From: Actinomycetota bacterium
GTDB taxonomy: Bacteria > Actinomycetota > Thermoleophilia > RBG-16-64-13
NCBI GenBank assembly: GCA_018830645.1
Contig: JAHJSA010000033.1
Location: 1 to 63,562 of the forward strand
Direction: 5' to 3'
DNA: 63,562 nucleotides
In this document: one piece after another, positions 6,596-31,894 of the stretch
How the letters are laid out: each line of letters begins with the position of its first letter
How positions within the stretch are numbered: position 1 is the stretch's first letter
Notes under the pieces: model-generated
The model's input: only the letters and a program-made list of their open reading frames with translations
Told to the model about the DNA's origin: nothing
Database searches by the model: none
Translations under genes and position numbers: made by a program

Positions 6596-6602
6596 GGACG
6601 CC

Positions 6603-10742: not shown

Positions 10743-10772
10743 AAGGCTCCTATGAAGGAGGAGGGACCAGAA

Positions 10773-11294: not shown

Positions 11295-11306
11295 GGAGGC
11301 CGGCCT

Positions 11307-11516: not shown

Positions 11517-11527
11517 AAGGAGACCTC

Positions 11528-12355: not shown

Positions 12356-12375
12356 TCTACCGTGTCATTATCGTG

Positions 12376-12648: not shown

Positions 12649-12773
12649 GACCATTATTATAGTCATGAAGGAAGCGTGCCGCAACGTCGAGCCCGACTCA
12701 GGCGCTCGCCTGGGGTTCGCCCGGCGAGCGACAGTGGCTCCGCTCGGCCATCCTGCGCCTGCCTGCCGGCCGC

Positions 12774-15496: not shown

Positions 15497-15556
15497 ATGC
15501 CCGCCCCCGCCCCCGCCTCGGCTTCGACCTCGACCAGACCCGGGTGCGCGTAGCCA

Positions 15557-15988
15557 ATGCCGCCGGGACGCTTCTTCCTCGACACGAACATCTTCGTCTA
15601 CTCGTTCGACGACTCGGCGCCGGTGAAGAGGGCCGTGGCGCAGGAACTGGTGGAGCGCGCGCTGACTACGCGCCAAGGTCTGATCAGCTACCAGGTGATC
15701 CAAGAGTTCTTGAACGTCGCCGGAACGCGCTTCGCCGTGCCCCTCTCGGTCGAGGACCGACGCACCTACCTCGATCGTGTGCTCGCGCCGCTGTGTGAGG
15801 TGTTCGCCGGTCCCGGCCTGTTCGCTCGCGCTCTCGACGTCCAGGAGCGTTACGGCTTCGCCTTCTACGACGCACTCATCTTCGCCGGGGCGCTGGAAGC
15901 GGCATGCGCGGTGCTCTACACGGAGGATCTGCAGGCCGGTCAGAGGATCGGGGCAATGGAGATCGTAGATCCATTCGCCCGCCTGTGA
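15557..15988 (+). CDS. vapC: VapC-family PIN-domain toxin
   Basis: This 143-residue PIN protein has the four acidic positions expected: FFLDTNIFVYSFDD (Asp9), YQVIQEFLNV (Glu), FAFYDALIFAGAL (Asp) and LYTEDLQAGQ (Asp). VapC toxins are Mg2+-dependent endoribonucleases that usually cut tRNA or rRNA. The length and motif spacing are typical and the gene appears intact. The 60-base gap from the antitoxin is longer than usual, but no other partner is near. Confidence 0.88.
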   Translation: MPPGRFFLDTNIFVYSFDDSAPVKRAVAQELVERALTTRQGLISYQVIQEFLNVAGTRFAVPLSVEDRRTYLDRVLAPLCEVFAGPGLFARALDVQERYGFAFYDALIFAGALEAACAVLYTEDLQAGQRIGAMEIVDPFARL

Positions 15989-16216: not shown

Positions 16217-16840
16217 ATGCCGCGCACCAGGAGCAGCGAAGAGACTCGGCGTGGAGAGATCGTGGACGCCGCCCTGCGGCTGATCCTCAAGAACGGCTTC
16301 CACAACACCACGCTCGACCAGGTGGCCGTGCAGGCCAAGGTGAGCAAGGGCCTCGTCTCCTACTACTTCCCCAAGAAGGACGAGCTCTTCCTCGCCGTTC
16401 TTCAGCTGATGATCGAGCGGCTGCGCGGCGACCTGGAGTCGGCCTACCGCGCCGACCTGCCGGCCCGCGAGCGGCTACGCCTGAACTTCCGCAACCTGTT
16501 CGACAACGGCAAGCGCACCCGCCAGTACTACACTGTGGTGATCGACTTCCTGAGCCAGGCGCTGCGCGAGCGCGCCGTGCAGGGCTACACCGAGGTGATC
16601 TACGACACCACCCTCACGTATGTGGAGTGGACCATCACCGACGGCATCCGCTCCGGAGAGTTCCGCCAGGTCGATGCGGCCAGCATGGCCGCGGTGCTCG
16701 TCGCGATGATGGAAGGTCTGGTGCTCCAATGGCTGTTCGGCCGGGATCCCATCTCGCTGGAAGAGGCATACGCCCTCTGCGAGCGTTTCGCCGACGACTT
16801 CCTCATGGACCCCGCGTGCCTGGAGGCGTCCGCCTCCTAA
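16217..16840 (+). CDS. TetR-family transcriptional regulator (paralogue of the one at 41763)
   Basis: This 207-residue protein has an N-terminal TetR HTH (RRGEIVDAALRLILKNGFHNTT, then LDQVAVQAKVSKGLVSYYFPKKDEL) and a BetI-like ligand-binding domain. It is strikingly similar to the TetR at 41763-42368: RLRLNFRNLFD, QYY/HYY, VEWTI/VEMTI and RSGEFR.VD are shared, so the two arose by duplication and may bind related effectors. It stands alone between the VapBC pair and a convergent amidohydrolase. The 228 bases upstream (15989-16216) contain only a weak GGTCGGCCGGTC symmetry near 16145. Confidence 0.87.
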   Translation: MPRTRSSEETRRGEIVDAALRLILKNGFHNTTLDQVAVQAKVSKGLVSYYFPKKDELFLAVLQLMIERLRGDLESAYRADLPARERLRLNFRNLFDNGKRTRQYYTVVIDFLSQALRERAVQGYTEVIYDTTLTYVEWTITDGIRSGEFRQVDAASMAAVLVAMMEGLVLQWLFGRDPISLEEAYALCERFADDFLMDPACLEASAS

Positions 16841-16960: not shown

Positions 16961-17830
16961 CTACTCCTTCAAGCCCAGCAGTCGGGCGCCGTTCTCCCAC
17001 AAGACGGCCCGAGCCCCGGCCTCTCCCAGGACCTCGCGGAGGGCGGCGATGTTCTCTGCGATCGAGGGCACTCCCGGGAAATCCGAACCGAAGATCATCT
17101 TCCCCACCAACCGCTCGAGTTGCGGGAAGTAGCGCGGCAGGTTGCGCGGCGGCAGCCCAGACAGCTCCAGATACACGTTCTCATGAAGCGTGGCCAGCAT
17201 GGCGGCAGCGTCGTACCAGACTCCCCGGCCCGCGTGGGCCAGAAGGATGGGCAGGTGGGGGAAGTCCACTGCCACGTCGTCGAGGAGAAGAGGGTCGGCG
17301 AACTTGAGCCGCGTTCCCGGGATACGGGAGAGCCCGGTGTGGAAGGTGCAGGGCAGGCCCAGCGCCTCGGCTCGTTCGTACAAGGGATAGAGCCGGGGGT
17401 CGTTCGGATAGACATGCTGGTAAGGGGGAAGGAACTTGAGTCCGGCCACCCGGCCCCGGGCCAACAGTCGTTCGAGTCGACCGACGAGGTCTTCGTCGAT
17501 CGCGGGATTGAGGCTGGCGAAGGGGTGCAGGGTCGGGATATCGGCGCAGTAGTCCTGGATGAACTCGCTCGTCACCATGCCCGAACTGGCCGGAGCCTCT
17601 TCGGCCAGGACGACGGCGTGGTCGACGCCCTCGCCGGCGAGGATGCCCCACAAGTGTGCCGGGTCCTCGAAGGAGGCGGAATCGGCGTAGGCTTCCGGGT
17701 TGGCCTCGCGGACGTAGTCCTGTGTGCCCGTGGTCCAGGTGCGCGCGATGACCGTGTGCACGTGCATGTCGAGCACCGGGTGTCCCAGTTCGGGGTGACC
17801 GAGCGCGGGATATGCGAGGTCGGCGCTCAC
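16961..17830 (-). CDS. Amidohydrolase-2 family TIM-barrel hydrolase or decarboxylase
   Basis: This 289-residue protein has the metal-binding barrel motifs of the amidohydrolase-2 (ACMSD/gamma-resorcylate decarboxylase) family: VLDMHVHTV near the N-terminus, FHTGL and LAHAGRG in the middle, and IFGSDFPGVPS near the C-terminus. The GTG at 17830 is chosen because it overlaps the TGA of the upstream TrpD-like gene (GTGA), giving translational coupling; further upstream the frame is only the shadow of that gene. Members hydrolyse lactones or decarboxylate aromatic acids. Coupling to a phosphoribosyltransferase-like enzyme suggests a shared small-molecule pathway, not yet identifiable. Confidence 0.8.
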   Translation of the reverse strand: MSADLAYPALGHPELGHPVLDMHVHTVIARTWTTGTQDYVREANPEAYADSASFEDPAHLWGILAGEGVDHAVVLAEEAPASSGMVTSEFIQDYCADIPTLHPFASLNPAIDEDLVGRLERLLARGRVAGLKFLPPYQHVYPNDPRLYPLYERAEALGLPCTFHTGLSRIPGTRLKFADPLLLDDVAVDFPHLPILLAHAGRGVWYDAAAMLATLHENVYLELSGLPPRNLPRYFPQLERLVGKMIFGSDFPGVPSIAENIAALREVLGEAGARAVLWENGARLLGLKE

Positions 17831-19245
17831 CAGGACGGCCCGCGGCGTGGGGCGGATCGCGGCGGCTTGACGGCCCGCGTGTACTCCACGAAGGCGCTGA
17901 GCTTGTCGAGCGCGGCGCCGCTCTCCACAGATTCGCGGGCCATCGTCACTCCCTCGGCGATGGCGCCCACTCTGTGGGCCAGGTAGATGGCCGCGCCCGC
18001 ATTCAGCAGCACGATGTCGAGCGGCGCTCCCGGCTCGCCGGCGAGTACCCTGCGCAACACCTCCGCGTTCTTCAGCGGGTCGCCCCCGGCGAGGTCCACG
18101 AGCGGCCATCGCTGCAAACCGAAGTCCTCGGGCTCCACCGTGAACGGTTCGCCCACGTTCCCGTTGCGCAGTTCCACGAGAGTCGTGGGGCCGGTGACCG
18201 TCATCTCGTCGAGGCCATCGTCGCCGTGTGCGAACAGGGCGTGCTCAGAGCCCAGTCGTCCGAGCGCCGTGGCCAGCGTGGTGAGGTAGCGGGGGTCGCT
18301 CACTCCGGTGAGTTGCCGCTTCACCCCGGCCGGGTTGAGGATTGGGGCGATGAAGTTGAACACGGTGCGCATGTTCAGGTTCCTGCGCATGGGGACCATG
18401 TGACGGATGGGCGCGTAGTGCAGGGGCGCGTACATGAAGCCGATGCCCACGTCGCGTACGCAGGCGGCTATGGCCTCCGGACCCAGGTCGATGCGGGCGC
18501 CCAACGCCTGCAGGAGGTCGGCGGAGCCGGCGTGCGATGTCTGGCCCCGGCTGCCGTGCTTGGCGATGCGCACTCCCGCCCCCGCGGCGACGAAGGCCGC
18601 GGTGGTGCTTATGTTGAAGGTGGCCAGCCAGTCGCCGCCCGTGCTGACGATGTCCACGAGGGGTTCGCTCGTGGGGATCTCCACGGGCGTGCCGTACTTG
18701 CGCATGGTGCGGGCGAATCCAAAGATCTCTTCACCGGTCTCGCCCTTGGTGCGCAGGCCCATGAGGAAGGCGGCCGTCTGCACGTCGCTCACCTGCCCCT
18801 CCACGATCAGTTCCAGCACGCGGGAGGCCAGGTCGGCGTCGAGGTCGCGGCGGGCCGCGATCTGATCGAGCACGCGCGAGATCAGTGGCACCGCGATGGC
18901 GTCGAGCGACTTCGCGCGGCTCACCAGGAGATCGTAGAAGAGGTCCACCAGCTCCGGATGGTTGGAGATGGCCTGGTCGATCTGATGCTTCCGGTACTCC
19001 TGAAAGTACTCGGGAGCGACGCCCATGGCCTGAGCCATCGCCTCCATCGCCTCGGGCTTGAGGCTCCGCTCGCCGGTGATCTGCTTGCGGAGTGTCTCGT
19101 ACTCCCAGCCCTCTACCCTCGCGAAGAACTCGCGCAGGTTGACGCGGGCATGCAGGTCGCCGGCCTCCTGCCGCAGCAGGTCGGCGAGCGCGTCGGCGAA
19201 GCGTTTGCCTGTGTAGTCGAGACGTGGGAATCCGCTGCCGATCAA
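17827..19245 (-). CDS. TrpD-like phosphoribosyltransferase with an N-terminal helix-turn-helix domain
   Basis: In this 472-residue protein, residues 112-455 match anthranilate phosphoribosyltransferase: STGGDWLATFNIST (201-214, canonical GTGGD...TFNIS with first Gly as Ser), KHGSRGQTSHAGSADLLQALG (229-249), GIGFMYAPLHYAP, and RTVFNFIAPILNPAG. Residues about 36-85 look like an XRE-type HTH (TLRKQITGERSLKPEAMEAM, then AQAMGVAPEYF), which normal TrpD (about 340 residues) lacks. No trp biosynthesis gene is nearby. It may be a TrpD paralogue acting on another aromatic or heterocyclic amine, or a regulator that senses such a compound. Confidence is high in the domains and low in the substrate. Confidence 0.8.
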   Translation of the reverse strand: MIGSGFPRLDYTGKRFADALADLLRQEAGDLHARVNLREFFARVEGWEYETLRKQITGERSLKPEAMEAMAQAMGVAPEYFQEYRKHQIDQAISNHPELVDLFYDLLVSRAKSLDAIAVPLISRVLDQIAARRDLDADLASRVLELIVEGQVSDVQTAAFLMGLRTKGETGEEIFGFARTMRKYGTPVEIPTSEPLVDIVSTGGDWLATFNISTTAAFVAAGAGVRIAKHGSRGQTSHAGSADLLQALGARIDLGPEAIAACVRDVGIGFMYAPLHYAPIRHMVPMRRNLNMRTVFNFIAPILNPAGVKRQLTGVSDPRYLTTLATALGRLGSEHALFAHGDDGLDEMTVTGPTTLVELRNGNVGEPFTVEPEDFGLQRWPLVDLAGGDPLKNAEVLRRVLAGEPGAPLDIVLLNAGAAIYLAHRVGAIAEGVTMARESVESGAALDKLSAFVEYTRAVKPPRSAPRRGPSW

Positions 19246-19307: not shown

Positions 19308-19339
19308 GTAGTTTACTACGACCGCGTAGGAATCACTAC
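19308..19339. promoter_or_regulatory. Paired GTAG/CTAC inverted repeats between divergent operons
   Basis: GTAG-TTTA-CTAC (19308-19319) and GTAG-GAATCA-CTAC (19326-19339) lie in the 269-base divergent intergenic region between the TrpD-like gene and the ABC importer. Two nearby short inverted repeats with the same half-site suggest an operator for a shared regulator. No clear promoter hexamers were identified around them. Confidence 0.35.
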
Positions 19340-19514
19340 AGGTGCGTTGACACCGCCTGGACCTCGTAATAGGGTACAGAAGCCATCGAGTCTGCCGGGG
19401 AACGGACGCCGCATGGTGGGGTGGACTCCTCTCGATCCGGTATCTGACAAGACCCGGCGCACAAGACGATGATGGTTCGGCTGTGGCGTTTCGCGAACGG
19501 GGGAGGGGACCAGT

Positions 19515-20675
19515 ATGCGGAGGAGACCTGCTCGATACTATCTATGGATCAGTTTGGTGGTGCTTCTGATCTCGGGGTTGGCGTTTGTTGGATGTGGTGG
19601 CGACGCTACGACTACGACGGCCGCGCCGACAGACACGACCGTTGGCGCAACTGAGACCACCGCCGGAACCACGGAGACCACGGCAGCGGCTGTGGATCTC
19701 AAGTTCGCCGAATCGAATCCGGTCGCATCCAACCAACACCAAATGGCGTTCAGCTATGGCAAGTCCGAGATGGCCAAGCTGGTGGGTGCGGAGTTCATCA
19801 CGGCCGATGCCAACCTCACCCCGGCCAAGCAGGTGACGGACATCGACACCTTCATCTCTCAGAAGGTGAACGGCATCACGAGTTGGACCCTGGACCAAGG
19901 CGCAGCAACGGCCGTGTATCAGCGGGCGCAGGACGCCGGGATCCCCGTCGTGACCGAGAACAGCCCCGGGGACTTTGTCACCACCGTCTTTGCGCAAGAG
20001 CAGAACATGACCAGAAAGGCCCAGATCGACGCAGCTGAGTGGTTCGCCGAGGTCTACCCCGGCGGGAAGATGTTCGTGATAGGCGGGCCTCCGGTTCCCT
20101 ACATCCTGTACGTCAGCAAGAATATGGAGGAGGAGGGAGCAGCCGCAGGACTCACCGTACTCTCCCGCCAGGAGAACATGACCGACCAGGCGAACGGTGC
20201 CCAGGTGATCGTCCAAGACCTCCTGACCAAGTACCCCGATGTGCAGATCGTCTGGTGCTTCAACGACCGTAGCGCTCTCGGTGCCTCTGCCGCGCTACGT
20301 GCCGCAGGCAAGAAGATCTACAACGCGGCCAATCCCGAACCGGGTGCGGTCATGGTGACCGGGATGAACGGTACACAAGAGGCCCTCGAGGCCGTCAAGG
20401 CGGGCATCATCACAGCCACCTACGCCGGTCAATCCGAGAAGGTAGGGGCCGCCGAGATCGAACTGCTTGCCCGCATCGCAAAGGGTGAGATCGCCGCGGG
20501 CGACGTCCCCTCAGTGGTCGTATGCCCGTACAAGCGTTGGGATGGCACCAATGTCGACCAGACCTCGTTCCCCATGGACACGATCATCGAGCTCGGCGTG
20601 TTGGACGAGTTCCTCAACTACAGCACGGACCCGTCCATGATCGACGACTTCATGGAGTTCGTAGGGACTCTCTAG
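19515..20675 (+). CDS. Lipoprotein substrate-binding component of a ribose-type ABC importer
   Basis: This 386-residue protein has an N-terminal signal with lipobox (RRRPARYYLW basic region, hydrophobic core, LAFVGC with Cys27), a Thr/Ala-rich linker to about residue 58, and a periplasmic-binding-protein type 1 (RbsB/Peripla_BP_4) domain. Internal motifs such as GITSWTLDQGAATAVYQRAQDAGIPVVTENS are the usual family ligand loop region. It is the first gene of a three-gene importer. A perfect 12-bp hairpin follows, which would favour higher expression of this protein than of its ATPase. The ligand is probably a sugar, cyclitol or nucleoside-like compound, not determined. Confidence 0.87.
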   Translation: MRRRPARYYLWISLVVLLISGLAFVGCGGDATTTTAAPTDTTVGATETTAGTTETTAAAVDLKFAESNPVASNQHQMAFSYGKSEMAKLVGAEFITADANLTPAKQVTDIDTFISQKVNGITSWTLDQGAATAVYQRAQDAGIPVVTENSPGDFVTTVFAQEQNMTRKAQIDAAEWFAEVYPGGKMFVIGGPPVPYILYVSKNMEEEGAAAGLTVLSRQENMTDQANGAQVIVQDLLTKYPDVQIVWCFNDRSALGASAALRAAGKKIYNAANPEPGAVMVTGMNGTQEALEAVKAGIITATYAGQSEKVGAAEIELLARIAKGEIAAGDVPSVVVCPYKRWDGTNVDQTSFPMDTIIELGVLDEFLNYSTDPSMIDDFMEFVGTL

Positions 20676-20734: not shown

Positions 20735-20794
20735 GTGGCGCCGGTGGCGAGGCGAGTCGGGGGCTTCCGCGTGCGGAGACCCGGAAAGGCCAAG

Positions 20795-22315
20795 ATGGCG
20801 CCTGAGCCTGTGATCAGGATGCGTGGCATCACCAAGCGCTTCCCGGGCGTCACCGCTTTGGACGGTGTGGATTTCGACCTCCTGCCCGGTGAGATCCACG
20901 CGCTTGTGGGTGAGAACGGGTCGGGCAAGTCGACCCTGTGCAAGTGCCTGTACGGCTTCGTCCAATCCGACGAGGGCGTCATCGAGATCAACGGCGCGCT
21001 TGTTTCCATAGACTCGCCGCATCGTGCCCGAGAACTCGGCATCGCGGCGATCACGCAGGAACTCACCCTCGCGCCCACTCTGAGCGTGGCGGAGAACATC
21101 CTCATGGGCAGATTGCCTCGGGGTAGGTTCGGCATCGACTGGGGAGCAGCGCGTCGGCAGGCCAGGGAGGCGCTCGACGAGATCGGGGCCCGCATCGACG
21201 AACAAGCTCTCGTGAACAGCCTCTCGGTCGAACTACAGCAGGAGGTCGAGATCGCTCGGGCGGTGTATGCGCAGTCTCCAGTGCTCATCCTCGATGAGGC
21301 CACCAGTTCGCTGTCTGAGTCGGCCACCAAACGGCTCATGGACAAGCTGGAGCAACTGCGCTCCAGCGGAGTCGCCGTGGTCTTCGTGTCGCATCGGTTG
21401 AGGGAAGTCTTTCAATGCTGTTCGCGGGTAACGGTCCTCCGTGACGGTGAACGCGTCGTCACGATGGACCTGGACGGTGTCACCGAGTCCCAACTTGTGA
21501 CTGCGATGGTGGGCCGCACCATGGAGGACCTCTACGGGAAGCGCAGGATCGCGAAGGGCGACACGCTCCTTTCGGTTCGCGGGCTCTCGACCCCCGATGG
21601 AAAGGTGCAGAACGCCGGCTTCGACCTCCGCGCGGGAGAGATCCTGGGGATCGCGGGCTTGGTCGGCTCCGGCAAGGTGGAGCTTGGCATGGCCGTGTAC
21701 GGAGCAGTGCCCTCATCGGGAGACGTGACCCTGGAAGGTCGCCGACTGAAGCACCGGAATCCGCGAAAGGGAATGGCCGCCGGGATCGGGTACGTGCCCG
21801 ACGATCGGAAGAGGGATGCCTTGCTCCCCACCAGGTCGGTTCGCACCAACCTCTCGCTACCCTGGCTGCCGTTCCGCAAGTTCTCGAGATTGGGCTTTCT
21901 CGATGTCCGTTCGGAGAAGGTGATGGCGCGGGAGTCCTGCGGCGATTTCGGCGTGCGCACCCCTTCCACCGAGTTTCCCATGGTGCTGCTCTCAGGGGGG
22001 AACCAACAGAAGGTCGTACTCGCCCGTTGGTTCGCTCTAACTCCCAAGGTAGTGATCTTCGCGGAGCCGACACGCGGCATCGACGTGGGTGCGAAAAGCG
22101 AGATCTACGGGTTCATCCAGGATCTCGCCGAACGAGGGGCGGGTATCATCATGATCTCGTCCGAGATGCCGGAGTTGCTTGGCGTTGCGGACCGCATCCT
22201 CGTCATGTACCAGGGGCAGCTGTGTGGGGAGTTCGACCCGGAGACGGCTGGGGAGGAAGAGATAGCCCATGCCGCCTGCATCGGGGAGATGAAGAATATG
22301 GGGGTGGTAGCTTGA
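20795..22315 (+). CDS. Ribose-type ABC importer ATPase (double NBD)
   Basis: This 506-residue protein contains two ATP-binding cassettes, as in RbsA/XylG/MglA. NBD1 has Walker A GENGSGKST, Walker B VLILDEATSSL and a signature region reading LSVELQQEVEIARAV, with Glu in place of the second Gly of the usual LSxGQ. NBD2 has a degenerate Walker A (GLVGSGKVEL), the signature LSGGNQQKVVLARW and FAEPTRGIDVGAK, which is typical for this group where NBD2 is catalytically weakened. ATG 20795 fits GGAAAGG upstream; the longer frame from 20735 overlaps the hairpin region and is unlikely. The stop overlaps the permease start. Confidence 0.9.
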   Translation: MAPEPVIRMRGITKRFPGVTALDGVDFDLLPGEIHALVGENGSGKSTLCKCLYGFVQSDEGVIEINGALVSIDSPHRARELGIAAITQELTLAPTLSVAENILMGRLPRGRFGIDWGAARRQAREALDEIGARIDEQALVNSLSVELQQEVEIARAVYAQSPVLILDEATSSLSESATKRLMDKLEQLRSSGVAVVFVSHRLREVFQCCSRVTVLRDGERVVTMDLDGVTESQLVTAMVGRTMEDLYGKRRIAKGDTLLSVRGLSTPDGKVQNAGFDLRAGEILGIAGLVGSGKVELGMAVYGAVPSSGDVTLEGRRLKHRNPRKGMAAGIGYVPDDRKRDALLPTRSVRTNLSLPWLPFRKFSRLGFLDVRSEKVMARESCGDFGVRTPSTEFPMVLLSGGNQQKVVLARWFALTPKVVIFAEPTRGIDVGAKSEIYGFIQDLAERGAGIIMISSEMPELLGVADRILVMYQGQLCGEFDPETAGEEEIAHAACIGEMKNMGVVA

Positions 22316-23391
22316 TGGGAGCTCCGACAGAGGCGGCAGCAGACGTGCAAAGATCTGACCCTGGTTCGCGACTCGCTCTGGCGCTCCGGAGGTTGTCGAT
22401 CGGCCGCGTGGCCGGCGCCCTCATAGGATTGGCTGGCGTGGCTCTGTACCTTGCACTGACCGATGATCTGTTCCTCTCCTGGGGCAACATCATGAACCTG
22501 TTCAGAGCCCAATCCGTGGTGTTCATCATCGCCATCGGCATGACGTTCGTCATCCTGACAGGGGGGCTCGACCTCTCCGTTGCCAGTACCACCGGCTTCG
22601 CCGGAATGATCCTCGGCTTCGCCATCCAGGCTGGATCGGGACCCGTTGTGGCCATCGCGCTCTGCGCCCTTGCGGGTGTCCTTCTGGGCCTCCTGAACGG
22701 CTTCTTGATCGGATACGTCCGCATCTCGTTCTTCGTGGTCACGCTTGGAACGCTCTCCATCTACGCGAGCGTCATCCTCACCACGACGGGTGGCAGCACC
22801 ATCTCGCTCTTCAACTACCCCGAGTTCGCGGGGATCCAGAGGCTGGCTAACGGGGACATCGGTCCGTTCCCGATCATCCTCGTGGTGATCCTGGCGCTCT
22901 ACCTGTTGGCGTGGTTCGTCCTGCACAGGACCGCCTTCGGCCGCGCCGTCTACGCCATCGGCTCGAACGCCGAAGCGGCCCGACTGAACGGTCTGAACGT
23001 CCCGCTCACACTGATGCTCGTGTACGGTGTGGCCGGGCTCATGTGTGGTCTTGGTGGCGTGCAACAGGATGGACGCCTCACGGCTGCCGTGCCGATCGTG
23101 GATCCCAACCAGATGCTGGTGGTCATCGCCGCGGTACTGATCGGAGGCATGAGCCTGCGCGGCGGGGAGGGTGGTCTTTTGGGAACGTTCATCGGTGTCC
23201 TCTTCCTCGGGGTTATCCAGAACGGCCTGACTCTGAAGGGAGTCTCGGCCTTCTGGCAAGGAACTGTCACAGGTCTCGTGTTGATCATCGCGGCCGGTCT
23301 TGCCGTGTTGCGCGAGACCGACGCGTTGCCCAGGCTACGGCGCTGGTTGTCCGGCAGGCGAAAGGCTGAAGCGGCGGAGACGACTGAGTAG
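22315..23391 (+). CDS. Ribose-type ABC importer permease
   Basis: This 358-residue membrane protein has about eight to ten hydrophobic segments and the RbsC/MglC signature (FIIAIGMTFVILTGGLDLSV, then the cytoplasmic RTAFGRAVYAIGSNAEAARLNGL coupling segment that docks on the ATPase). The ATG at 22315 overlaps the last base of the ATPase stop. A TTG at 22312 is an alternative. It is the third gene of the importer and is followed by catabolic genes after about 30 bases, so the operon probably continues. Confidence 0.9.
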   Translation: MGAPTEAAADVQRSDPGSRLALALRRLSIGRVAGALIGLAGVALYLALTDDLFLSWGNIMNLFRAQSVVFIIAIGMTFVILTGGLDLSVASTTGFAGMILGFAIQAGSGPVVAIALCALAGVLLGLLNGFLIGYVRISFFVVTLGTLSIYASVILTTTGGSTISLFNYPEFAGIQRLANGDIGPFPIILVVILALYLLAWFVLHRTAFGRAVYAIGSNAEAARLNGLNVPLTLMLVYGVAGLMCGLGGVQQDGRLTAAVPIVDPNQMLVVIAAVLIGGMSLRGGEGGLLGTFIGVLFLGVIQNGLTLKGVSAFWQGTVTGLVLIIAAGLAVLRETDALPRLRRWLSGRRKAEAAETTE

Positions 23392-23422: not shown

Positions 23423-24241
23423 GTGGAATTGTCGAGATTGTCGGTGAGCCATATCACGACCGTGAACTGGGATCTGGCCACGGCGATCGAACGATACCGA
23501 GCGCACGGTCTCGGCGGCATCGGCCCGTGGAGGGACAAGCTCGAGGCGGAAGGATTCGCCGCAGGGAATGCCTTGCTCCGCGACAGCGGCCTCCAGGTGA
23601 GCAACTACTGTGCCGCCGGCTTCTTCACGATGGGTGAAGGCGCGTGCCAAGAGACGGTCGACGCGGCCGTGGAGAGTACGATCGTTGCCATAGGAGAAGC
23701 GGCCGAGTTGGGGGCGGACTGCCTGGTGATCGTCAGCGGACCGGTGAGCTGCTTCGGTGTCGACGGGGCGATGGAGATGATCCTGCCAAGTCTGCGAACT
23801 GTCGCGAAGGCCGCGGAGAAGACGGGAGTGCACCTGGGGCTCGAGGCCCTTCACCCCATGGACGTGACCACATGGTCCATGGTGCGTACCATCCACCAGG
23901 CGCTCGACATCATCGATGAGATAGACACCCCCCATTTCGGGCTCATGCTCGATCTGTACAACACCTGGTGGGACCCACAAATCGTCGCGGGCATCCGAAG
24001 GGCTGGAGCCGAAGGGCGCATCAAAGGGGTACATATCGCGGACTGGCGCAACCCCACGCGCTCGTTCACCGATCGGACCATTCCAGGCCGCGGCATCATC
24101 CCGCTGAGCACGCTCATCGCGGAGGTCGAGGCGACAGGATGGACAGGATTCTATGACGTCGAGATCTTCTCGGACGAGCTGTGGGCAAGCGACTACGATG
24201 CCCTGCTCGACGAGACTGCGGGATGGTTCGAGGCCCTGTGA
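23423..24241 (+). CDS. Xylose-isomerase-like TIM-barrel sugar isomerase/epimerase
   Basis: This 272-residue AP-endonuclease-2/xylose-isomerase-like barrel has probable metal ligands in LGLEALHPMD (Glu), GLMLDLYNTWWDP (Asp), GVHIADWRNP (His) and FYDVEIFSDE (Glu), the pattern of IolE/IolH and tagatose-3-epimerase relatives. GTG 23423 follows a clear AAGGAGG (23409-23415). It lies between importer genes and oxidoreductase genes, so it probably isomerises or dehydrates the imported compound. Family members act on sugars, inosose or hydroxypyruvate, so the substrate remains open. Confidence 0.8.
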   Translation: MELSRLSVSHITTVNWDLATAIERYRAHGLGGIGPWRDKLEAEGFAAGNALLRDSGLQVSNYCAAGFFTMGEGACQETVDAAVESTIVAIGEAAELGADCLVIVSGPVSCFGVDGAMEMILPSLRTVAKAAEKTGVHLGLEALHPMDVTTWSMVRTIHQALDIIDEIDTPHFGLMLDLYNTWWDPQIVAGIRRAGAEGRIKGVHIADWRNPTRSFTDRTIPGRGIIPLSTLIAEVEATGWTGFYDVEIFSDELWASDYDALLDETAGWFEAL

Positions 24242-24297: not shown

Positions 24298-25869
24298 GTG
24301 GCGGACTACGATGCGATAGTGGTTGGATCCGGTCACAATGGGCTTGCGTCCGCCCTTCTGTTGTCCCGCGCGGGATGGAAGGTGCTGGTCGTGGAGCAGT
24401 CGGACGTTCCGGGCGGGGCCTCGAAGAGCCGCGAGCTGACACTCCCCGGCTTCACCCATGACGTGCACGCCACTAACATAGGGTTCTTCCTGGGATCAAG
24501 TACGTTCGCCGAGTTCAAGGATGACTTCTTTGCCAATGGGTTCGGCATCTCCGCCGGGGATCAACCGTACGCCAGTGTTTTCCCCGACGGTGACGCCATC
24601 TGCGGCTATATGGACGCACAGAAGATGGAGAGTGAGTTGGCCCGCCACGATCCGGCGGACGCCGAAGCGTGGAAGCAGATGCTGCAGGAATTCGAACGGT
24701 TCAGTGCCCATCTCTTGACGATCTACAAGCTCCCCATGCCGTCGTTCGCGCTGGTTCGCCACGCGTACCGTATGTACAGGAGTCTCGGCCGCGCCGAGTT
24801 CTGGGATGTTGTGCAGATATTGCTGGCGTCCTCGCAGAACTTCGTGGATTCGCGCTATCGCTCGGAGAAGGTCAAGGCCTTGTTCACCCCCTGGGGCTTT
24901 CACCTGGACCACGGACCGGATGTCTCGGGCGGCGCGGCCTTCCCCTATCTCGAAGTGCCGCTCGACTACATGAACGGTCTGGCGTTCTCCACGGGTGGCG
25001 TCGGGCGGCTGATGGACGCGATGATAGCCACGATCAGAGCCAAGGGCGGGGAGGTGATCCTCGGCAAGGCAGTCACGTCGATCCCCGTCGAGCAGGTCGG
25101 TGCAGTGGGTGTGATCCTCGACGACGGCACCCGACTGAGTGCCAAGAAGGCTGTGATCGCCAACGTGACGCCGCCCCGTCTCTTCGGGCCCCTCGTGGCC
25201 GAGGAGCACTTCCCGTCCAGCTTCATGAGGAAGGTGCGCGGCTTCAGATACGGCGCTGCCACCATGATGATGCACCTGGCACTGGATGGACCGGTGCCCT
25301 GGGCGGCTGGGGCGCATCTGGCCGACTGCTCGTATGTGCATGTGGGCCCCTACTCGGAAGACATAAGCCGGGCATATCACGAGTCTCTCCTGGGCTATCT
25401 CCCGAAAAGCCCGATGTTGGTGGTGGGTCAATCAAGCCGCATGGACAAGACGCGTGCTCCCGAAGGGAAGGAGACCCTTTGGGTCCAGGTGCGCGCCGTC
25501 CCGACCGTGCCGAAAGGAGATGCAGCGGGTGAGCTGACATCCACGGATTGGGAGACCCTGCGGGAGCCGTACGGAGAACGAGTCTTGAATAAGATCGAGT
25601 CCTTCGCTCCCGGCTTCAAGGATCGAGTGCTGTCCATGAAGGTGCTGGCTCCGCCCGACATGGAGAAGGATAACCCCAATCTTGTAGGCGGCGATTCTGT
25701 CTCGGGAAGCCATCACATCGATCAGCACTTCATGTTCAGGCCATTCGCTGGTTGGTCTCGTTATCGAACGCCTGTCAAGAATCTCTACATGATAGGCCAG
25801 TCCACGTGGCCGGGTGCCGGGTTGAGCGCGGCATCGGGCTACCTTCTCGGCAAGGACCTGCTCAAGTAG
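24298..25869 (+). CDS. FAD-dependent oxidoreductase of the phytoene desaturase/PYROXD2 group
   Basis: This 523-residue flavoprotein starts with ADYDAIVVGSGHNGLASALLLSRAGWKVLVVEQ, a dinucleotide-binding fold with GSGHNG, and ends with NLYMIGQSTWPGAGLSAASGYLLGK, the C-terminal FAD motif shared by carotenoid desaturases and PYROXD2-like proteins. GAGGAGG (24285-24291) precedes the GTG start. Carotenoid synthesis genes are absent here, so a role as a dehydrogenase or oxidase of an imported compound fits the operon better than carotenogenesis. Confidence 0.82.
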   Translation: MADYDAIVVGSGHNGLASALLLSRAGWKVLVVEQSDVPGGASKSRELTLPGFTHDVHATNIGFFLGSSTFAEFKDDFFANGFGISAGDQPYASVFPDGDAICGYMDAQKMESELARHDPADAEAWKQMLQEFERFSAHLLTIYKLPMPSFALVRHAYRMYRSLGRAEFWDVVQILLASSQNFVDSRYRSEKVKALFTPWGFHLDHGPDVSGGAAFPYLEVPLDYMNGLAFSTGGVGRLMDAMIATIRAKGGEVILGKAVTSIPVEQVGAVGVILDDGTRLSAKKAVIANVTPPRLFGPLVAEEHFPSSFMRKVRGFRYGAATMMMHLALDGPVPWAAGAHLADCSYVHVGPYSEDISRAYHESLLGYLPKSPMLVVGQSSRMDKTRAPEGKETLWVQVRAVPTVPKGDAAGELTSTDWETLREPYGERVLNKIESFAPGFKDRVLSMKVLAPPDMEKDNPNLVGGDSVSGSHHIDQHFMFRPFAGWSRYRTPVKNLYMIGQSTWPGAGLSAASGYLLGKDLLK

Positions 25870-25926: not shown

Positions 25927-27282
25927 GTGTTGGATCTCAAGATCGTCAATGGGACCATGGTGATCCCGGGGACCGGCCTGGTGCGCGGTGGAGTGGGCTG
26001 CAAGGACGGGCAGATCGTCGCCATAGGGCCCGAGTTCGGCATGGAAGATGCCGTCCGCACCGTCGATGCCGCCGGCAAGTACGTGATCCCTGGCGTCATC
26101 GACCCCCACGTGCACCTGGGCATCTTCACCGGCGACTTCGCCGCCGAGACCGAGACCGAGACCCGCGCGGCGCTCGCCGGCGGCGTGACCACCACCGGCG
26201 TCATGATGGGTGGCGATCAGTCCTACCTCGGCATGCTCCCCGGCTTGATCGAGACCGTGGAGGCGAAGTCTTCCACCGATATGTTCTTCCACCTGAGCAT
26301 CTTCACTCCCGAGCAATTGGGTGAGATCCGCCGGTACGTCGAAGACTTTGGGGTCACCTCGTTCAAGTTCTACATGTGTGGCGTCACGGGCGTGTTCCCG
26401 AACGTCGAGGATGAGTTCATCAAGCAGGGTCTTGAGAGCCTCGTGGACATTGGCGGGCACCTGACCGGCCTCGTGCATTGCGAAGATCAGGCCATGGTCG
26501 ACGCCGCTCTTGCCAAGGTGGCGGCCGAGACGCCGGACGGCGGCCTGCGCGAGTGGGCCGACGCGGGCCCGGCCGAGGCCGAAGAGGACGCCGTGATCCG
26601 TGCCTGCCGTCTCCAGGCGGAGACCGGCGCCCGCTTCTACCTGGTGCACATGTCGTCGGGTCTCGGCGTGAAGGCCGCGGCGGCCAACCGATCCGGCGGC
26701 CCGTTGTTCGTGGAGACCACCTCGCCCTACCTTTCGCTCGATAAGGATGACCCCTCGGGCCTTCTGGCCAAGATGTTGCCGCCGATCAAGGACGCCTCCG
26801 ACAAGGAAGCGCTGTGGGCGGCGGTCAAAGACGGTACGATCAGCAGTATCGGTACCGACAACGTGTCGTTGAACCGCGAGATCAAGGGCGCCGAGAAGGG
26901 CCTGTTGAACGCCATGCCGGGCTATGCGGTCCTGCAGACCCATCTCCCCGTCTTACTGCACGAGGGTGTGAACAATCGCGGCATCGACATCGAGCGCTTG
27001 GTGGAGGTCACGAGCCGCGGTCCTGCCGAGATCTTCGGTATCTACCCGCAGAAGGGCACCATCGCCGTGGGGTCCGACGCCGACCTGGTGATCGTGGATC
27101 TCGACAAGGAGCAGGTGGTAGACGAGACCAAGCTCTACTCGTTCTCCGACTTCTCGCTCTACAACGGCCGCACCCTCAAGGGCTGGCCGGTGATGACCAT
27201 CAAGGCGGGCCGGGTGGTCGTCGAGGATGGTGAGGTCTTGAGCGATCCGGGTATCGGCGGTTTCTTGCGCCGCACCAAGTAA
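25927..27282 (+). CDS. Dihydropyrimidinase/hydantoinase-type cyclic amidohydrolase
   Basis: This 451-residue protein has the cyclic amidohydrolase motif order: IPGVIDPHVHLG (first two His ligands), SFKFYMCG (Lys that is carboxylated to bridge the metals), GLVHCEDQ (His), YLVHMSSG (His) and SIGTDN (Asp). It carries the small N- and C-terminal beta-sandwich ends (GTIAVGSDADLVIVDLD). Enzymes of this type open hydantoin, dihydropyrimidine, allantoin or dihydroorotate rings. With the molybdenum hydroxylase and Hyu-type subunits elsewhere in the window, an N-heterocycle ring-opening role is plausible. GTG 25927 has GAGG and GGTGAGG upstream. Confidence 0.87.
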   Translation: MLDLKIVNGTMVIPGTGLVRGGVGCKDGQIVAIGPEFGMEDAVRTVDAAGKYVIPGVIDPHVHLGIFTGDFAAETETETRAALAGGVTTTGVMMGGDQSYLGMLPGLIETVEAKSSTDMFFHLSIFTPEQLGEIRRYVEDFGVTSFKFYMCGVTGVFPNVEDEFIKQGLESLVDIGGHLTGLVHCEDQAMVDAALAKVAAETPDGGLREWADAGPAEAEEDAVIRACRLQAETGARFYLVHMSSGLGVKAAAANRSGGPLFVETTSPYLSLDKDDPSGLLAKMLPPIKDASDKEALWAAVKDGTISSIGTDNVSLNREIKGAEKGLLNAMPGYAVLQTHLPVLLHEGVNNRGIDIERLVEVTSRGPAEIFGIYPQKGTIAVGSDADLVIVDLDKEQVVDETKLYSFSDFSLYNGRTLKGWPVMTIKAGRVVVEDGEVLSDPGIGGFLRRTK

Positions 27283-27352: not shown

Positions 27353-27904
27353 GTGCTTCAACTGAGGATCCAAGGTCGGGGCGGCCAGGGGGCCCAGCTG
27401 GCGGGCGAAGTGCTCGCCACGGCCTTCTTCCAAGAGGGTAAGTACGTGCAGGCCTACTCCACGTACGGCGGTGCGCGCCGTGGCACGCCGGTCTCCACGT
27501 TCATCCGGGTGGACGACGACCCGGTGCGGGAGCGGTGTGACATCGAGGAGCCCGACGCGATCATCTGCTTCGACCCGTCTCTGCTGAGCCCCGCTTTGCT
27601 GACCGGGGTCACCGCGAAGACCGTGCTCCTGGTGAACTCAGTCCGGGGGCCCGAGGAGTTCGCGGACTTGGGCGACCTACGTGTTGCCACCATCGACGCT
27701 CTTACGATCGCTCGGGGCAACGGGCTCGGTCGCATCGTCAACTCCACTCTGCTCGGCGCGTTCGCTCGAGTCGTGGGCGCTCCCGATCTCGACGTGCTCG
27801 TGGAGGTCATCCGGCAGGTGTCGCCGCGCAAGGTGGACGAGAACATGAAGTCCACGCGCGACGGCTACGAACTGGTCAGGATGCGCGAAGGGGCCCCCCG
27901 ATGA
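27353..27904 (+). CDS. porC: 2-oxoacid:ferredoxin oxidoreductase gamma subunit
   Basis: This 183-residue protein begins LQLRIQGRGGQGAQLAGEVLATAFFQEGKYVQAYSTYGGARRGTPVSTFIR, the classical PorG/IorB-type gamma domain (GRGGQG near the N-terminus, then ..YG.E.RGG/T). It helps to bind CoA and assemble the 2-oxoacid oxidoreductase. The GTG start is read from GTGCTTCAA. The stop overlaps the next start (ATGA). Together with the next three genes it forms a four-subunit pyruvate/2-oxoacid oxidoreductase. Confidence 0.88.
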   Translation: MLQLRIQGRGGQGAQLAGEVLATAFFQEGKYVQAYSTYGGARRGTPVSTFIRVDDDPVRERCDIEEPDAIICFDPSLLSPALLTGVTAKTVLLVNSVRGPEEFADLGDLRVATIDALTIARGNGLGRIVNSTLLGAFARVVGAPDLDVLVEVIRQVSPRKVDENMKSTRDGYELVRMREGAPR

Positions 27905-29787
27905 GCGAGGTGACCAGGAAGCCGACCACGGGCCCCGCCGCGGCTTCGCCGGGCGAGGTACCAACCATCTGGACCACCGGTTGGACCGACGTGTTCAACA
28001 CCGGCACCTGGCGCGCCGCCACGCCCATCCACGAGTGGCGCCCGTCGCCCTGTCACGCCGACTGCCCGATCGGCAACACCATCCCCGGCTGGATCGCGGA
28101 CATCCGCGAGGGCGCGTACCAGGAGGCTTGGCTGTCCCTGGTCGAGACGAACCCCTTCCCCTCCGTGACCGGCCGAGTGTGCCATCACCCGTGCGAAGGT
28201 CACTGCAACCGCGAGGTGATCGAGGCCGTCGTGGGCATCAATGGACTGGAGCACTTCCTCGGCGACCGTGCTCTCGAAGAGGGCTGGGCGCTGCCCGCGC
28301 CCGCAGAATCTCAGGGCAAGCGGGTAGCCGTGGTGGGAGGGGGCCCGGCCGGCCTCTCCTGCGCCTATCACCTGCGTCGTCTCGGCTATGAGGTCACGAT
28401 CTACGAGGCGCGAGAGGAACTCGGCGGTCTGCTCCGCTACGGCATCCCCGAGTATCGCCTGGCGGCCGGTGTGGTCGATGCCGAAATAGCGCGTCTGCTC
28501 GACATGGGCATCGAGGTGCGTCTGAACGCCGGTCTAGCCGACCGGGCCGCGCTCGAGTCTCTGGAGGCGGAATACGACGCTGTGTTCCTCGCGGTGGGTG
28601 CGCAGCAGGCCAAGATCTTGCGTCACCTCGAGGGCGGCGCGGGCGCGGGCCGAGTGCTCGACGGGCTGGAGTATCTGCGGCGGTGCACCGAAGGCGTGGC
28701 CCGCGATCTGGGCGAGCGCATGACCGTGATCGGCGGCGGCAGCGCCGCCATGGATGTGGCGCGGAGCGCCCGGCGCCTAGGCCATCAGGTGTCTGTGGTC
28801 GCCCTCGAATCGCGCGGCGCGATGCCCGCGCAGCCCGAAGAGATCGAGCAGGCGCTCGAGGAAGGCGTCGCGCTCTTCGACGGGGCCATGGTGGCCGCGG
28901 TGGAGGCGGGCGCTGACGGCGGGTTGACCCTAAAGTGCGTCAAGGTGACCCTCGATCTCGGGGCGCCCGCCGGAGAGCTCCGCCCCGTGCCCGTGGAAGG
29001 CGGGGAGTTCGCGCTGGCTGCCGACGTGATCGTCACGGCCATCGGTCAGGATCCCGACCTCGCGCCGTTCAACGGCGCTTTCGGTGACGGCTCCTCCGAC
29101 GGCTCCTCCGTCGACGGCGCCACCGGCGGCTTTGTCGAGTGCGCCGTGCTCGTCGCCGACCCCGTGACCCTGGCCACCACACGCGCCGGCGTCTTCGCCG
29201 GCGGCGATGTCGCGTCCACCAACCGCTTCGTCTCTGAGGCCATCGGCGCGGGCCGCCGGGCCGCCTACTCAATCGCCGAGTACCTGAGTCATCCGGACGC
29301 CTGCATCCCGGAGCGGCCGAAGCTCGAGGACTCGGTGAACCGCACAGAGGTGAACTCGTTCTACTTCGAATTCAGCGAACGCCGCGAACGCGTGGTCGCC
29401 CCTGCTGCTGAGCGTCTGCAGGCCTTCGCCGAGACGATCTCGGTGTACTCGACGGAGGACGCGAACGCCGAGGCCGGACGCTGCATGAGCTGCGGCTTCT
29501 GCGTCCAGTGCGACAACTGCTTCGTCTTCTGCCCCGACATGGCCGTGCAGAAGGACCCCTCGGCCGCCGGCGCGGAGGGCGTCGCCCCCGGCGCCTCTGA
29601 GTGTGCCTCCGAAGGCGCCCCGCCCGCCGGTGCCGCCGTGCGGGTGGTTGCGGCCGTTCCGTGCGTCGGCGCACCCGCCGACAGCGGGCCCTTCTACTTC
29701 GTGCTCGACCAGTACTGCAAGGGCTGCGGGCTGTGCGTGACCGAGTGTCCCCGCGGCGCGGTCCGGCTGGAGCAGGTGAACCTATGA
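27901..29787 (+). CDS. GltD-like flavoprotein fused to the ferredoxin-type delta subunit of a 2-oxoacid oxidoreductase
   Basis: This 628-residue protein combines a glutamate-synthase small-subunit fold with an iron-sulfur tail: N-terminal cluster cysteines (PCHADCPIGN, then CHHPCEGHCNRE), FAD motif VVGGGPAGLSCAYHL, NAD(P)H motif VIGGGSAAMD, and C-terminal VFAGGDVAS. From about residue 530 there are two cluster motifs, CMSCGFCVQCDNCFVFCP and CKGCGLCVTECP, separated by an A/G-rich linker (about 553-595). Ordinary PorD is only about 100 residues, so this is a fusion placing NAD(P)H chemistry directly on the oxidoreductase. It resembles the HdrC-GltD-like protein at 6603. Starts and stops overlap the neighbours (ATGA). 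Confidence 0.87.
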   Translation: MSEVTRKPTTGPAAASPGEVPTIWTTGWTDVFNTGTWRAATPIHEWRPSPCHADCPIGNTIPGWIADIREGAYQEAWLSLVETNPFPSVTGRVCHHPCEGHCNREVIEAVVGINGLEHFLGDRALEEGWALPAPAESQGKRVAVVGGGPAGLSCAYHLRRLGYEVTIYEAREELGGLLRYGIPEYRLAAGVVDAEIARLLDMGIEVRLNAGLADRAALESLEAEYDAVFLAVGAQQAKILRHLEGGAGAGRVLDGLEYLRRCTEGVARDLGERMTVIGGGSAAMDVARSARRLGHQVSVVALESRGAMPAQPEEIEQALEEGVALFDGAMVAAVEAGADGGLTLKCVKVTLDLGAPAGELRPVPVEGGEFALAADVIVTAIGQDPDLAPFNGAFGDGSSDGSSVDGATGGFVECAVLVADPVTLATTRAGVFAGGDVASTNRFVSEAIGAGRRAAYSIAEYLSHPDACIPERPKLEDSVNRTEVNSFYFEFSERRERVVAPAAERLQAFAETISVYSTEDANAEAGRCMSCGFCVQCDNCFVFCPDMAVQKDPSAAGAEGVAPGASECASEGAPPAGAAVRVVAAVPCVGAPADSGPFYFVLDQYCKGCGLCVTECPRGAVRLEQVNL

Positions 29788-30992
29788 GCGCCACAGCCAC
29801 CGCGCCCCGGAGTTCCCCGCCGGCCAACGAGGTGCAGCTGGCCGGCGACATGCGACTGCTTCTCTCGGGGAACCACGCGGTATCCTACGGCGCCATGCGG
29901 GCGCGGCCCCAGGTGGTGCCCATCTATCCAATCACGCCCCAGACGCCCATCGCTGAGAAGATCAGCGACCTGCAGCTCGCGGGCGACTTCGACGTGGACC
30001 TCATGACCGCGGAGTCCGAGCATTCGGCGATGTCGGCGTGCATCACCGCGTCGCTCACCGGGGTGCGTGTGTTCACCGCCACCGCCTCGCAGGGTCTCTT
30101 CCTGATGCACGAGATGCTCCACTACGCCTCGGGCGCTCGCGCGCCGATCGTCATGGTGAACGTGAACCGCACCATCGGCTCGCCCTGGGGGTTCTGGCCC
30201 GACCAGACCGACAGTCTCGCTCAGCGCGACACCGGCTGGATCCAGTACTACACTGAGAACGGTCAGGAGTCTCTCGACACGGTGATCCAGGCGTTCAAGG
30301 TGGCCGAGGAGGTGCTCCTGCCGGCGATGGTCGTGCACGAAGCCTTCTACGTGTCGCACGCTCTGGAGCCGGTAACGGTGCCCTCCCAGGAGCGAGTCGA
30401 CGCCTACCTGCCGCCCTTCGATCCGGTCCACAAGCTCGACACCGAGATCGGTGAGTCTTGGGGCAACGTGGTCAACCAGGACATGTTCTACCGCCACCGC
30501 AAGGACCTGGGCACCGCGATGAACCAGGTGCTTGAGGTGTCGGTGCGGGCCGATGCCGAGTACGCCGACATGATGGGTCGCGGATACGGCATCCTCGAGA
30601 AGTACCGCACCGAGGACGCCGACATGCTGATCGTGGCCTTCGGCGCGATGGTGGGCACCGCTCGGGTGGCCGTGGACATGCTGCGGGCGGCAGGCAAGGC
30701 CGTGGGGCTCCTCAAGATCAAGCTCTTCCGGCCGTTCCCCGTGGAGGCGGTGCGGGCTGCCGTGGCGGGTGTCCCGCGCCTGGTTGTGATGGAGCGGAAC
30801 TTCTCTCCCGGCGGGGGAGGCGTCCTGCATCAGGAGCTGAAGGCCGCGCTGTACGGCATGCCCGACCCTCCGGCCGTGCACGGATACCTGGCCGGCGTGG
30901 GCGGGGTGAACGTCTCGCCCAAGAAGATGGTGGAGTTGGCTGAGAAGGCGCTGACCGACGAGCCGGTTCCCGACTCGGTGTGGCAGAGGTGA
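29784..30992 (+). CDS. porA: 2-oxoacid:ferredoxin oxidoreductase alpha subunit
   Basis: This 402-residue protein shows the POR/VOR alpha pattern: LLLSGNHAVSYGAMRA, VVPIYPITPQTPIAEKISD, then the TPP-domain pairing region (MTAESEHSAMSACITASLTG, ATASQGLFLMHEMLHYASGAR) and the C-terminal RNFSPGGGGVLHQELKA. It contributes the pyrimidine-binding half of the thiamine diphosphate site. An N-terminal Ala/Pro-rich stretch of about 20 residues precedes the domain. The start is chosen at the ATG overlapping the previous stop. The substrate could be pyruvate, a branched 2-oxoacid or another 2-oxoacid. Confidence 0.92.
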   Translation: MSATATAPRSSPPANEVQLAGDMRLLLSGNHAVSYGAMRARPQVVPIYPITPQTPIAEKISDLQLAGDFDVDLMTAESEHSAMSACITASLTGVRVFTATASQGLFLMHEMLHYASGARAPIVMVNVNRTIGSPWGFWPDQTDSLAQRDTGWIQYYTENGQESLDTVIQAFKVAEEVLLPAMVVHEAFYVSHALEPVTVPSQERVDAYLPPFDPVHKLDTEIGESWGNVVNQDMFYRHRKDLGTAMNQVLEVSVRADAEYADMMGRGYGILEKYRTEDADMLIVAFGAMVGTARVAVDMLRAAGKAVGLLKIKLFRPFPVEAVRAAVAGVPRLVVMERNFSPGGGGVLHQELKAALYGMPDPPAVHGYLAGVGGVNVSPKKMVELAEKALTDEPVPDSVWQR

Positions 30993-30997
30993 GGCGG

Positions 30998-31894
30998 ATG
31001 CATACGTACGAACTCGACGAGCAGACGGTCTTCAACTCCGGGCACAACGCCTGCCCCGGATGCGGTGAGGCCTTGGCCGTGCGCTACGTGCTGAACACGA
31101 TGGGCCCGAACACCATCGGGGTGGTGCCGCCATCCTGCATCGCCATCATCTGCGGTCCCCAGCCGTACAGCTCGATGCGCATACCGGTATACCAGACGAC
31201 GCTCGAGGCCAGCGCCGCGTCGGCCGCCGGCATCAGCCGGGCGCTGAAGCGCCAGGGCAAGCACGACGTGAACGTTCTCGCTATGGCCGGCGACGGCGGC
31301 ACCTACGACATCGGCTTCCAGGCCCTCTCCGGTGCCGCCGAACGCAACGAAGACATGGTGTACGTCTGCTTGGACAACGAGGGCTACATGAACACCGGCG
31401 CCCAGAAGAGCTCGTCGACCCCTTATCTCGCGGTGACCAGCTCCACTCCCGGTGGGAAGCCCAGCGACAAGAAGGACATCACCGAGATCATGGCCGCCCA
31501 CCGCATCCCCTATGTGGCCACGGCCACCGTGGGCTACCCCGACGACCTGGCGCGCAAGGTGGCCAAAGCCCGCGACATGGAAGGCATGCGCTTCATCGTG
31601 GTGCTCACCCCCTGCCTCGATGGGTGGGGCGTGGCCGACGATGGCGCGGTGCGGGTTTCACGCCTCGCGGTCGACACCGGCTTCTTCCCCCTGTACGAAG
31701 TCGAGGACGGAGAGCGGTATACGATCAACCACGGCCCCAAGGGCATCCCGGTGGAGCGCTACCTCGAGCAACAGAAGCGCTACCGGCATCTGGACGCGGA
31801 CCAGATCAAGGAGATCCAGACCGGAGTGGATCACCGGTGGAGCCTGCTGCAGGCGCGCGCTGAGTCCATGGCGCGTCCTGTTGTCTGCGACTAG
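30998..31894 (+). CDS. porB: 2-oxoacid:ferredoxin oxidoreductase beta subunit
   Basis: This 298-residue protein contains the TPP/Mg2+ motif GDGGTYDIGFQALSGAAER followed by NEGYMNTG, and an N-terminal cluster motif HNACPGCGEALAVRYV (CxxC of the proximal [4Fe-4S] cluster). These are the beta-subunit features of PorB. ATG 30998 is preferred over GTG 30980, because the longer start would overlap the porA end without a better ribosome-binding site (AGAGGTGAGG lies at 30985-30994). It completes a gamma-delta/GltD-alpha-beta operon. Confidence 0.92.
   Translation: MHTYELDEQTVFNSGHNACPGCGEALAVRYVLNTMGPNTIGVVPPSCIAIICGPQPYSSMRIPVYQTTLEASAASAAGISRALKRQGKHDVNVLAMAGDGGTYDIGFQALSGAAERNEDMVYVCLDNEGYMNTGAQKSSSTPYLAVTSSTPGGKPSDKKDITEIMAAHRIPYVATATVGYPDDLARKVAKARDMEGMRFIVVLTPCLDGWGVADDGAVRVSRLAVDTGFFPLYEVEDGERYTINHGPKGIPVERYLEQQKRYRHLDADQIKEIQTGVDHRWSLLQARAESMARPVVCD

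Follow-up and report, generated by a model that had tools for sequence, protein, structure and literature searches.

The locus between an amidohydrolase gene and a divergent import operon in the window (the whole stretch of 63,562 nucleotides analysed here) raises the question of what an anthranilate phosphoribosyltransferase (TrpD) is doing behind a helix-turn-helix (HTH) domain and away from any tryptophan gene. The 472-residue reading frame reported in the initial annotation is real and lies on the minus strand; its start codon is TTG, with an AGGAG-like site upstream, and the reported four-base overlap with the amidohydrolase-2 gene is seen as GTGA at 17830-17827, with the GTG at 17830 opening the amidohydrolase frame (Table 1). 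The encoded protein has an XRE-TrpD architecture and looks like an uncommonly clear example from nature of an enzyme that became a transcription regulator, a copy of TrpD having been joined to a DNA-binding domain. The fusion is probably a one-component transcription regulator in which a repurposed TrpD forms the effector domain. The window's own genome is designated G000; the other genomes that carry the fusion are G001, G003, G005, and G012.

Table 1. Features of the fusion locus and its divergent operon (window coordinates)
Feature	Positions	Strand	Remarks
Amidohydrolase-2 enzyme, overlaps fusion gene by 4 bases	16961..17830	-	Follows the fusion in G001, G005, G012 too; lacking at both G003 loci
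XRE-TrpD fusion protein, 472 aa, putative regulator	17827..19245	-	Orthologues in G001, G003 (two), G005, G012
TrpD domain, residues ~122-458	17872..18882	-	PRPP/Mg residues kept; acceptor-side S201, S232, Q235, Y277, I302, L303 changed
Cro/CI-type (XRE) HTH, residues ~13-95	18961..19209	-	Family alignment, profile match, model
Weak candidate fusion-gene promoter, TAGTGA-17-TAAACT	19310..19338	-	Inferred; covered by operator; same layout in G012
Predicted operator, CTAC-N6-GTAG-N6-CTAC	19316..19339		Unique in genome; repeated at orthologous sites
-35 box TTGACA of divergent operon, 7 bases past operator	19347..19352	+	
-10 box TAGGGT, 17-base spacer, weak TANNNT type	19370..19375	+	Inferred by alignment with G001, G012
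Sugar-type substrate-binding protein (Peripla_BP_4), divergent operon	19515..20675	+	
ABC importer ATPase, AraG/RbsA-like	20735..22315	+	
ABC importer permease, RbsC/AraH-like	22393..23391	+	
Xylose-isomerase-like TIM barrel	23423..24241	+	
FAD-dependent CrtO-like oxidoreductase	24298..25869	+	
Dihydropyrimidinase/hydantoinase-like amidohydrolase	25927..27282	+	First divergent gene in G001, G003 (C74), G012 (C225)
2-oxoacid:acceptor oxidoreductase operon: gamma subunit, NAD(P)-binding flavoprotein, alpha and beta subunits	27353..31894	+	

The first 120 residues of the protein have no Pfam assignment of their own; the fusion protein alone scores 12.1 bits against HTH_3 (cut-off 23), and Pfam and PDB searches with the N-terminal domain as a single sequence gave nothing usable, a family alignment being needed. 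Stand-alone relatives of this domain occur in related genomes. When they were aligned with the fusions, 16 of the 20 members matched HTH_3 (E up to 1, best 6e-10), seven positions were invariant (R60, A71, F81, E83, R85, P97, and L99), and the family profile led to the XRE proteins EspR, ClgR, and HigA (best E = 7e-4, EspR). An AlphaFold2 model of residues 1-121 (pLDDT 84.7) has helices at 16-28, 37-43, 49-57, 64-74, and 82-95, and its structural matches are nearly all Cro/CI-type repressors, including lambda repressor, 434 Cro, and SinR; the best Z, 6.7 for lambda repressor, is by itself modest for a helical domain. The exceptions are the phosphonate dioxygenases MPnS/HEPD, which show that an XRE-like fold can also sit inside enzymes with no known regulatory role. 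The XRE-like HTH read in the initial annotation is thus borne out by relatives, profile match, and structure model, and a model devoid of a DNA-binding surface, named there as grounds for dropping the idea, was not obtained: the predicted fold is the DNA-binding one of the Cro/CI type.

The remainder of the protein matches the curated trpD model TIGR01245 with 363 bits (cut-off 199) over residues 127-454 and exceeds the cut-offs of both Pfam Glycos_transf_3 and Glycos_trans_3N. Confidence of the whole-protein model is mostly above 90 over residues ~121-460, and superposition on Mycobacterium tuberculosis TrpD (3r88) gave E = 1.1e-33 and a target TM of 0.93. The domain had been described as an almost complete TrpD; its identity as TrpD stands, and it is in fact complete (~122-458). 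The STGGD motif (residues 201-205) and KHGSRGQTSHAGSAD (from residue 229) are exactly as described.

The six fusions were compared residue by residue with 63 ordinary TrpDs, using M. tuberculosis numbering mapped by motif. The PRPP/Mg residues D111, N117, S119, K135, D251, and E252 are unchanged in every fusion. On the anthranilate side, where we take H183 to belong from its position, only R193 survives (in all six) of the set G107, N138, H183, and R193. G107 is replaced by Ser and H183 by Tyr in six of six fusions and in none of the 63 ordinary TrpDs, where both are fully conserved; N138 is Ser in five fusions and in one ordinary TrpD (conserved in 61 of 63). The Q235, I302, and L303 of Table 1 likewise distinguish the fusions from ordinary TrpDs. 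Anthranilate is contacted in TrpD by R193, N138, and the backbone of G107 (PMC9835598). Because the PRPP/Mg residues are intact while G107, N138, and H183 are replaced, the PRPP side is retained and the acceptor side rebuilt. The intact site makes PRPP the likeliest ligand of the domain; a pathway metabolite as second ligand in the altered pocket is conjecture. Of the two kinds of ligand suggested in the initial annotation, PRPP-like or anthranilate-like, the former is plausible from this site, and the latter would face an altered pocket. Between G000 and G001, dN/dS is ~0.09 for the HTH part and ~0.08 for the TrpD part, indicating purifying selection on both domains.

Automatic annotation would name this gene trpD, which would be wrong for pathway reconstruction. 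The fusion is independent of tryptophan synthesis. As initially observed, no trp genes lie nearby: none was found among the window proteins scanned by family, and the true trpD of the genome is located on another contig (G000:C97) among trp genes that include trpE and trpC. A separate trpD, with trpC and trpE close by, is also present in G001, G005, and G012. In G003 (98% complete), trpE, trpC, and an ordinary trpD are all missing and no convincing trpB was found, which makes it a predicted tryptophan auxotroph; it retains two fusions all the same, so the fusion is not needed for making tryptophan. A trp-operon context in relatives, which would have spoken against a separate function, was not encountered for any protein with this N-terminus.

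The sugar-type importer from which the gene had been said to diverge is confirmed by its three components (Table 1). At all six loci, in all five genomes, the fusion gene and an import or catabolic operon point away from each other. The sugar-type importer is part of the fusion locus in G000, G005, and G012, and the hydantoinase-like gene with at least the first 2-oxoacid:acceptor oxidoreductase genes is found at the loci of G000, G001, G005, G012, and contig C74 of G003; the divergent genes on contig C118 of G003 encode an unrelated Liv-type importer and an AMP-binding ligase of the acyl-CoA-ligase type. Partner genes vary between loci; the divergent placement is constant. The amidohydrolase follows the fusion in four genomes but not in G003, and is therefore not essential to the fusion's role. 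A TetR gene (16217-16840) lies beside the locus in G000 and in G001, where it is 98% identical. At 2958-11959, the window encodes two HdrA-like proteins, a GltD-like flavoprotein, and a reductase of the Old Yellow Enzyme type (BaiCD-like), a cluster partly conserved near the G005 fusion.

The six intergenic regions align poorly save for one block, CTAC-N6-GTAG-N6-CTAC-N7-TTGACA. Of its 24-base CTAC-N6-GTAG-N6-CTAC part, G000 and G001 have one copy each and G012 has two. Allowing at most one mismatch, a search for the whole 37-base element in 399 genomes of the class returned four sites, all exact, in these same genomes (two in G012): three are the fusion intergenic regions, and the other is a second G012 locus upstream of an importer gene. 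A reversed control pattern had zero matches in the 399 genomes at the same threshold. At two mismatches or fewer in 61 genomes, the four exact sites were joined by the fusion locus of G005 itself (two mismatches) and by a two-mismatch site in G017 that was taken as chance, lying inside a called coding region. For the 18 fixed bases, simple arithmetic with uniform bases gives a chance expectation of about 1e-4 per genome of this size. Some 120 bases after the second G012 site comes a gene for a substrate-binding protein (49% identical to that at 19515), and the same contig has a homologue (80%) of the gene at 24298; genes that form one divergent operon in G000 and are split in G012 therefore bear the same element. 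Divergence is conserved, and a unique element is shared in front of the putatively controlled genes. The exact element is absent from both G003 loci, one of which has just CTAC-N6-GTAT, possibly expected by chance, despite one G003 fusion sharing the same recognition-helix sequence.

The half-sites are spaced 10 bases apart, which is one helical turn, and are only 4 bases long; an inverted-repeat search of the intergenic region alone reported none. Owing to its weak -10 box, the TTGACA promoter went unreported in a consensus promoter scan. If +1 is set 7 bases past that box, the row of half-sites would fall at about -66 to -43, a position that would suit activation of the divergent operon. The operator also overlies the fusion gene's best promoter candidate, which suggests autorepression.

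The fusion is represented by six genes, all in a single uncultured actinobacterial family (two in G003, one in each of the other four genomes), with no further case among 399 genomes of the class or 396 across the phylum. In the phylum-wide set, besides the window's genome, the N-terminal domain gave only two weak matches, both to short reading frames (118 and 136 aa). Matches in a contig scan outside the family cover the TrpD part only, bar one from Chloroflexia, rejected as a fusion because its reading frame is an ordinary 364-aa TrpD; the viral contigs scanned held no relative. These searches suit this type of HTH, and independent TrpD fusions with other kinds would escape them. A phylogeny of TrpD-like proteins bearing the extension, the check proposed at the outset, places the six fusions in one clade (support 100/100) whose sister is the trp-operon TrpD of G005 (96/78), followed by those of G010 and G014. 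The fusion has a single origin, and because the clade is sister to the family's own trp-operon TrpD, the tree fits a duplication of that trpD followed by capture of an XRE domain.

Several minor features bear on the same proteins. In G012 the fusion gene is split between its HTH and TrpD parts at two contig ends (C225 and C150; L078 and L077), reflecting either an assembly break or an inserted repeat. The trp-operon trpD genes of G000 (C97; L079 8937-9971) and G001 (C3; L083) form a long branch apart from other TrpDs of the family, which suggests that the trp operon of the window's genus was replaced by a foreign one. Extra TrpD-like paralogues, 34-37% identical to the query, are present in another family of the class (G024:C238 and G034:C83). 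A stand-alone XRE-domain relative in G008 (L084 7058-7441) adjoins what reads as a phage-type integrase gene (7473-8639) and is a possible source of the captured domain.

That regulators arise from enzymes gaining DNA-binding domains is widely held, and the process is rarely caught in the act. The authors of work on BzdR of Azoarcus built chimeras to retrace such a path (PMC3602430). BzdR joins an XRE HTH to a shikimate-kinase-like effector domain and is a repressor with mapped TGCA-N6-TGCA operators and benzoyl-CoA as inducer (PMC3602430; PMC6678401). The fusion resembles it in placing a Cro/CI-type HTH before an enzyme-derived domain, in the position of its gene beside a catabolic operon (controlled by BzdR, putatively so here), and in the N6 spacing of the predicted CTAC-N6-GTAG operator. 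In contrast, its effector domain is TrpD rather than shikimate-kinase-like, which excludes it from the BzdR subfamily; it retains the catalytic PRPP residues, while for BzdR the loss of kinase function was important; and here the operator is a predicted one and the sign of control a proposed one. PurR of Bacillus subtilis combines a winged HTH with an inactive phosphoribosyltransferase (PRT) domain and has PRPP as inducer (PMC8789054); it shares with the fusion the pairing of a PRT-type with a DNA-binding domain, PRPP being the known effector there and the likeliest here. Its PRT is of the HPRT/XPRT kind, however, unrelated to the TrpD (class III) fold, and with an XRE domain in addition the fusion is not a PurR of the Bacillus type. 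By analogy with BzdR and Bacillus PurR, the TrpD domain may be assigned as effector pocket and the XRE domain as DNA contact.

TrpD2/YbiB of Escherichia coli likewise links the TrpD fold with DNA binding (predicted here), but it lacks the PRPP motif, and its own surface grooves bind nucleic acid irrespective of sequence (PMC9835598; PMC10123104). The fusion keeps the PRPP site (TGGD, NIST, KHG, and DE residues), has a separate HTH, and scores 74 bits against NF006005 (cut-off 185); membership was rejected because the motif is kept, and from the differences in motif and in mode of binding the fusion is regarded as a separate invention. With TrpD proper (TIGR01245) it has in common the fold, the PRPP/Mg residues, and 60% identity to the trp-operon TrpD of G005, but it differs in its XRE domain, changed anthranilate pocket, lack of trp context, and retention in the absence of trpE, trpB, and trpC. 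No report of an XRE-TrpD regulator was found in a literature search that covered few subscription papers. An enzyme sister (60% identical), the fusion, its likely operator, and a lineage that lacks the enzyme's pathway all occur in one bacterial family, and the steps from enzyme to regulator are therefore directly testable.

In the mechanism that we propose, the Cro/CI-type domain would bind the row of CTAC/GTAG half-sites in the region that separates the fusion gene from the divergent operon for import and catabolism, and the C-terminal copy of the TrpD enzyme would serve as the effector-binding part. This part has most likely retained the binding of PRPP-Mg, either as sole ligand or jointly with a metabolite from the controlled pathway that would occupy the altered acceptor pocket, and ligand binding would change how the protein engages DNA. 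The operator stops 7 bases short of the operon's -35 box and overlies the fusion gene's candidate promoter; from this layout, the likeliest circuit would be autorepression combined with activation of the operon. A more specific form can be put forward only tentatively: a two-ligand sensor, converted once, would hold PRPP-Mg as the enzyme does and a non-anthranilate pathway metabolite in the reshaped pocket, the ternary state setting XRE contact with the ten-base-periodic operator and tying uptake and breakdown of a compound to the cell's PRPP level. This would be the first TrpD-type effector domain that we know of, and one whose sister enzyme persists within the same bacterial family.

The initial annotation had offered two functions. 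The transcription factor is now well supported by the XRE fold, the divergence at six loci, the operator-like element, and retention where the trp pathway is missing; the other, an enzyme of a new phosphoribosylation route, is less likely but still conceivable, all PRPP/Mg residues being kept. Points against regulation by the fusion are the absence of the exact element at the G003 loci, a full PRPP/Mg site including R193 (the pattern of a working enzyme too), the XRE-like folds of MPnS/HEPD, and the TetR gene, whose product could instead be the one using the element in the genus of G000 and G001. Were the element to belong to such another regulator, with the fusion using a different site or none, the adjoining TetR gene in G000 and G001 would be explained, as would the G003 fusions that lack the exact element even where the recognition-helix sequence is the same. 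We consider this unlikely, no such TetR gene being called at the G005 locus or in the G012 parts examined, both of which carry the element at the fusion gene.

A bifunctional enzyme-regulator resembling BirA or NadR would transfer phosphoribose to an acceptor of the controlled pathway and let occupancy set DNA binding. Intact PRPP/Mg residues and Arg193 in six of six fusions, the low dN/dS of the TrpD part (~0.08), and an overlap coupling the gene to an amidohydrolase that could act next are consistent with it, but two residues invariant in the 63 ordinary TrpDs (G107 and H183) have been exchanged, neither G003 locus has the amidohydrolase, and none of the operon's genes was recognised as encoding an enzyme that uses a phosphoribosyl adduct; we hold it to be rather improbable. 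It is very unlikely that the protein is a plain phosphoribosyltransferase of a new catabolic route, its HTH serving assembly only and regulating nothing: the TIGR01245 score far above cut-off and the XRE-like folds within some enzymes (MPnS/HEPD) would agree, but not the divergent placement at six loci or an operator-like element that is confined to carriers and recurs at a second importer locus. Hardly credible, and largely refuted, is a second anthranilate phosphoribosyltransferase of tryptophan synthesis with an incidental N-terminal extension; the trpD model is matched above its cut-off, but G000, G001, G005, and G012 have a separate trpD, G003 has two fusions and no trpE, trpB, or trpC, and anthranilate-contacting residues are changed. 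A regulator with a TrpD effector domain thus remains the preferred reading.

The rest of the window contains a large catabolic island (39233-58477) that encodes a TPP-dependent oxidoreductase, a CoA-transferase III, an acyl-CoA-dehydrogenase-like protein, methylmalonyl-CoA mutase, hydantoinase A/B, and a molybdenum hydroxylase. Small gene pairs that read as toxin-antitoxin systems (RelE/Phd-like and VapBC-like) are located at 11996-12684 (minus strand), 15275-15988 (plus strand), and 36588-37231 (minus strand).
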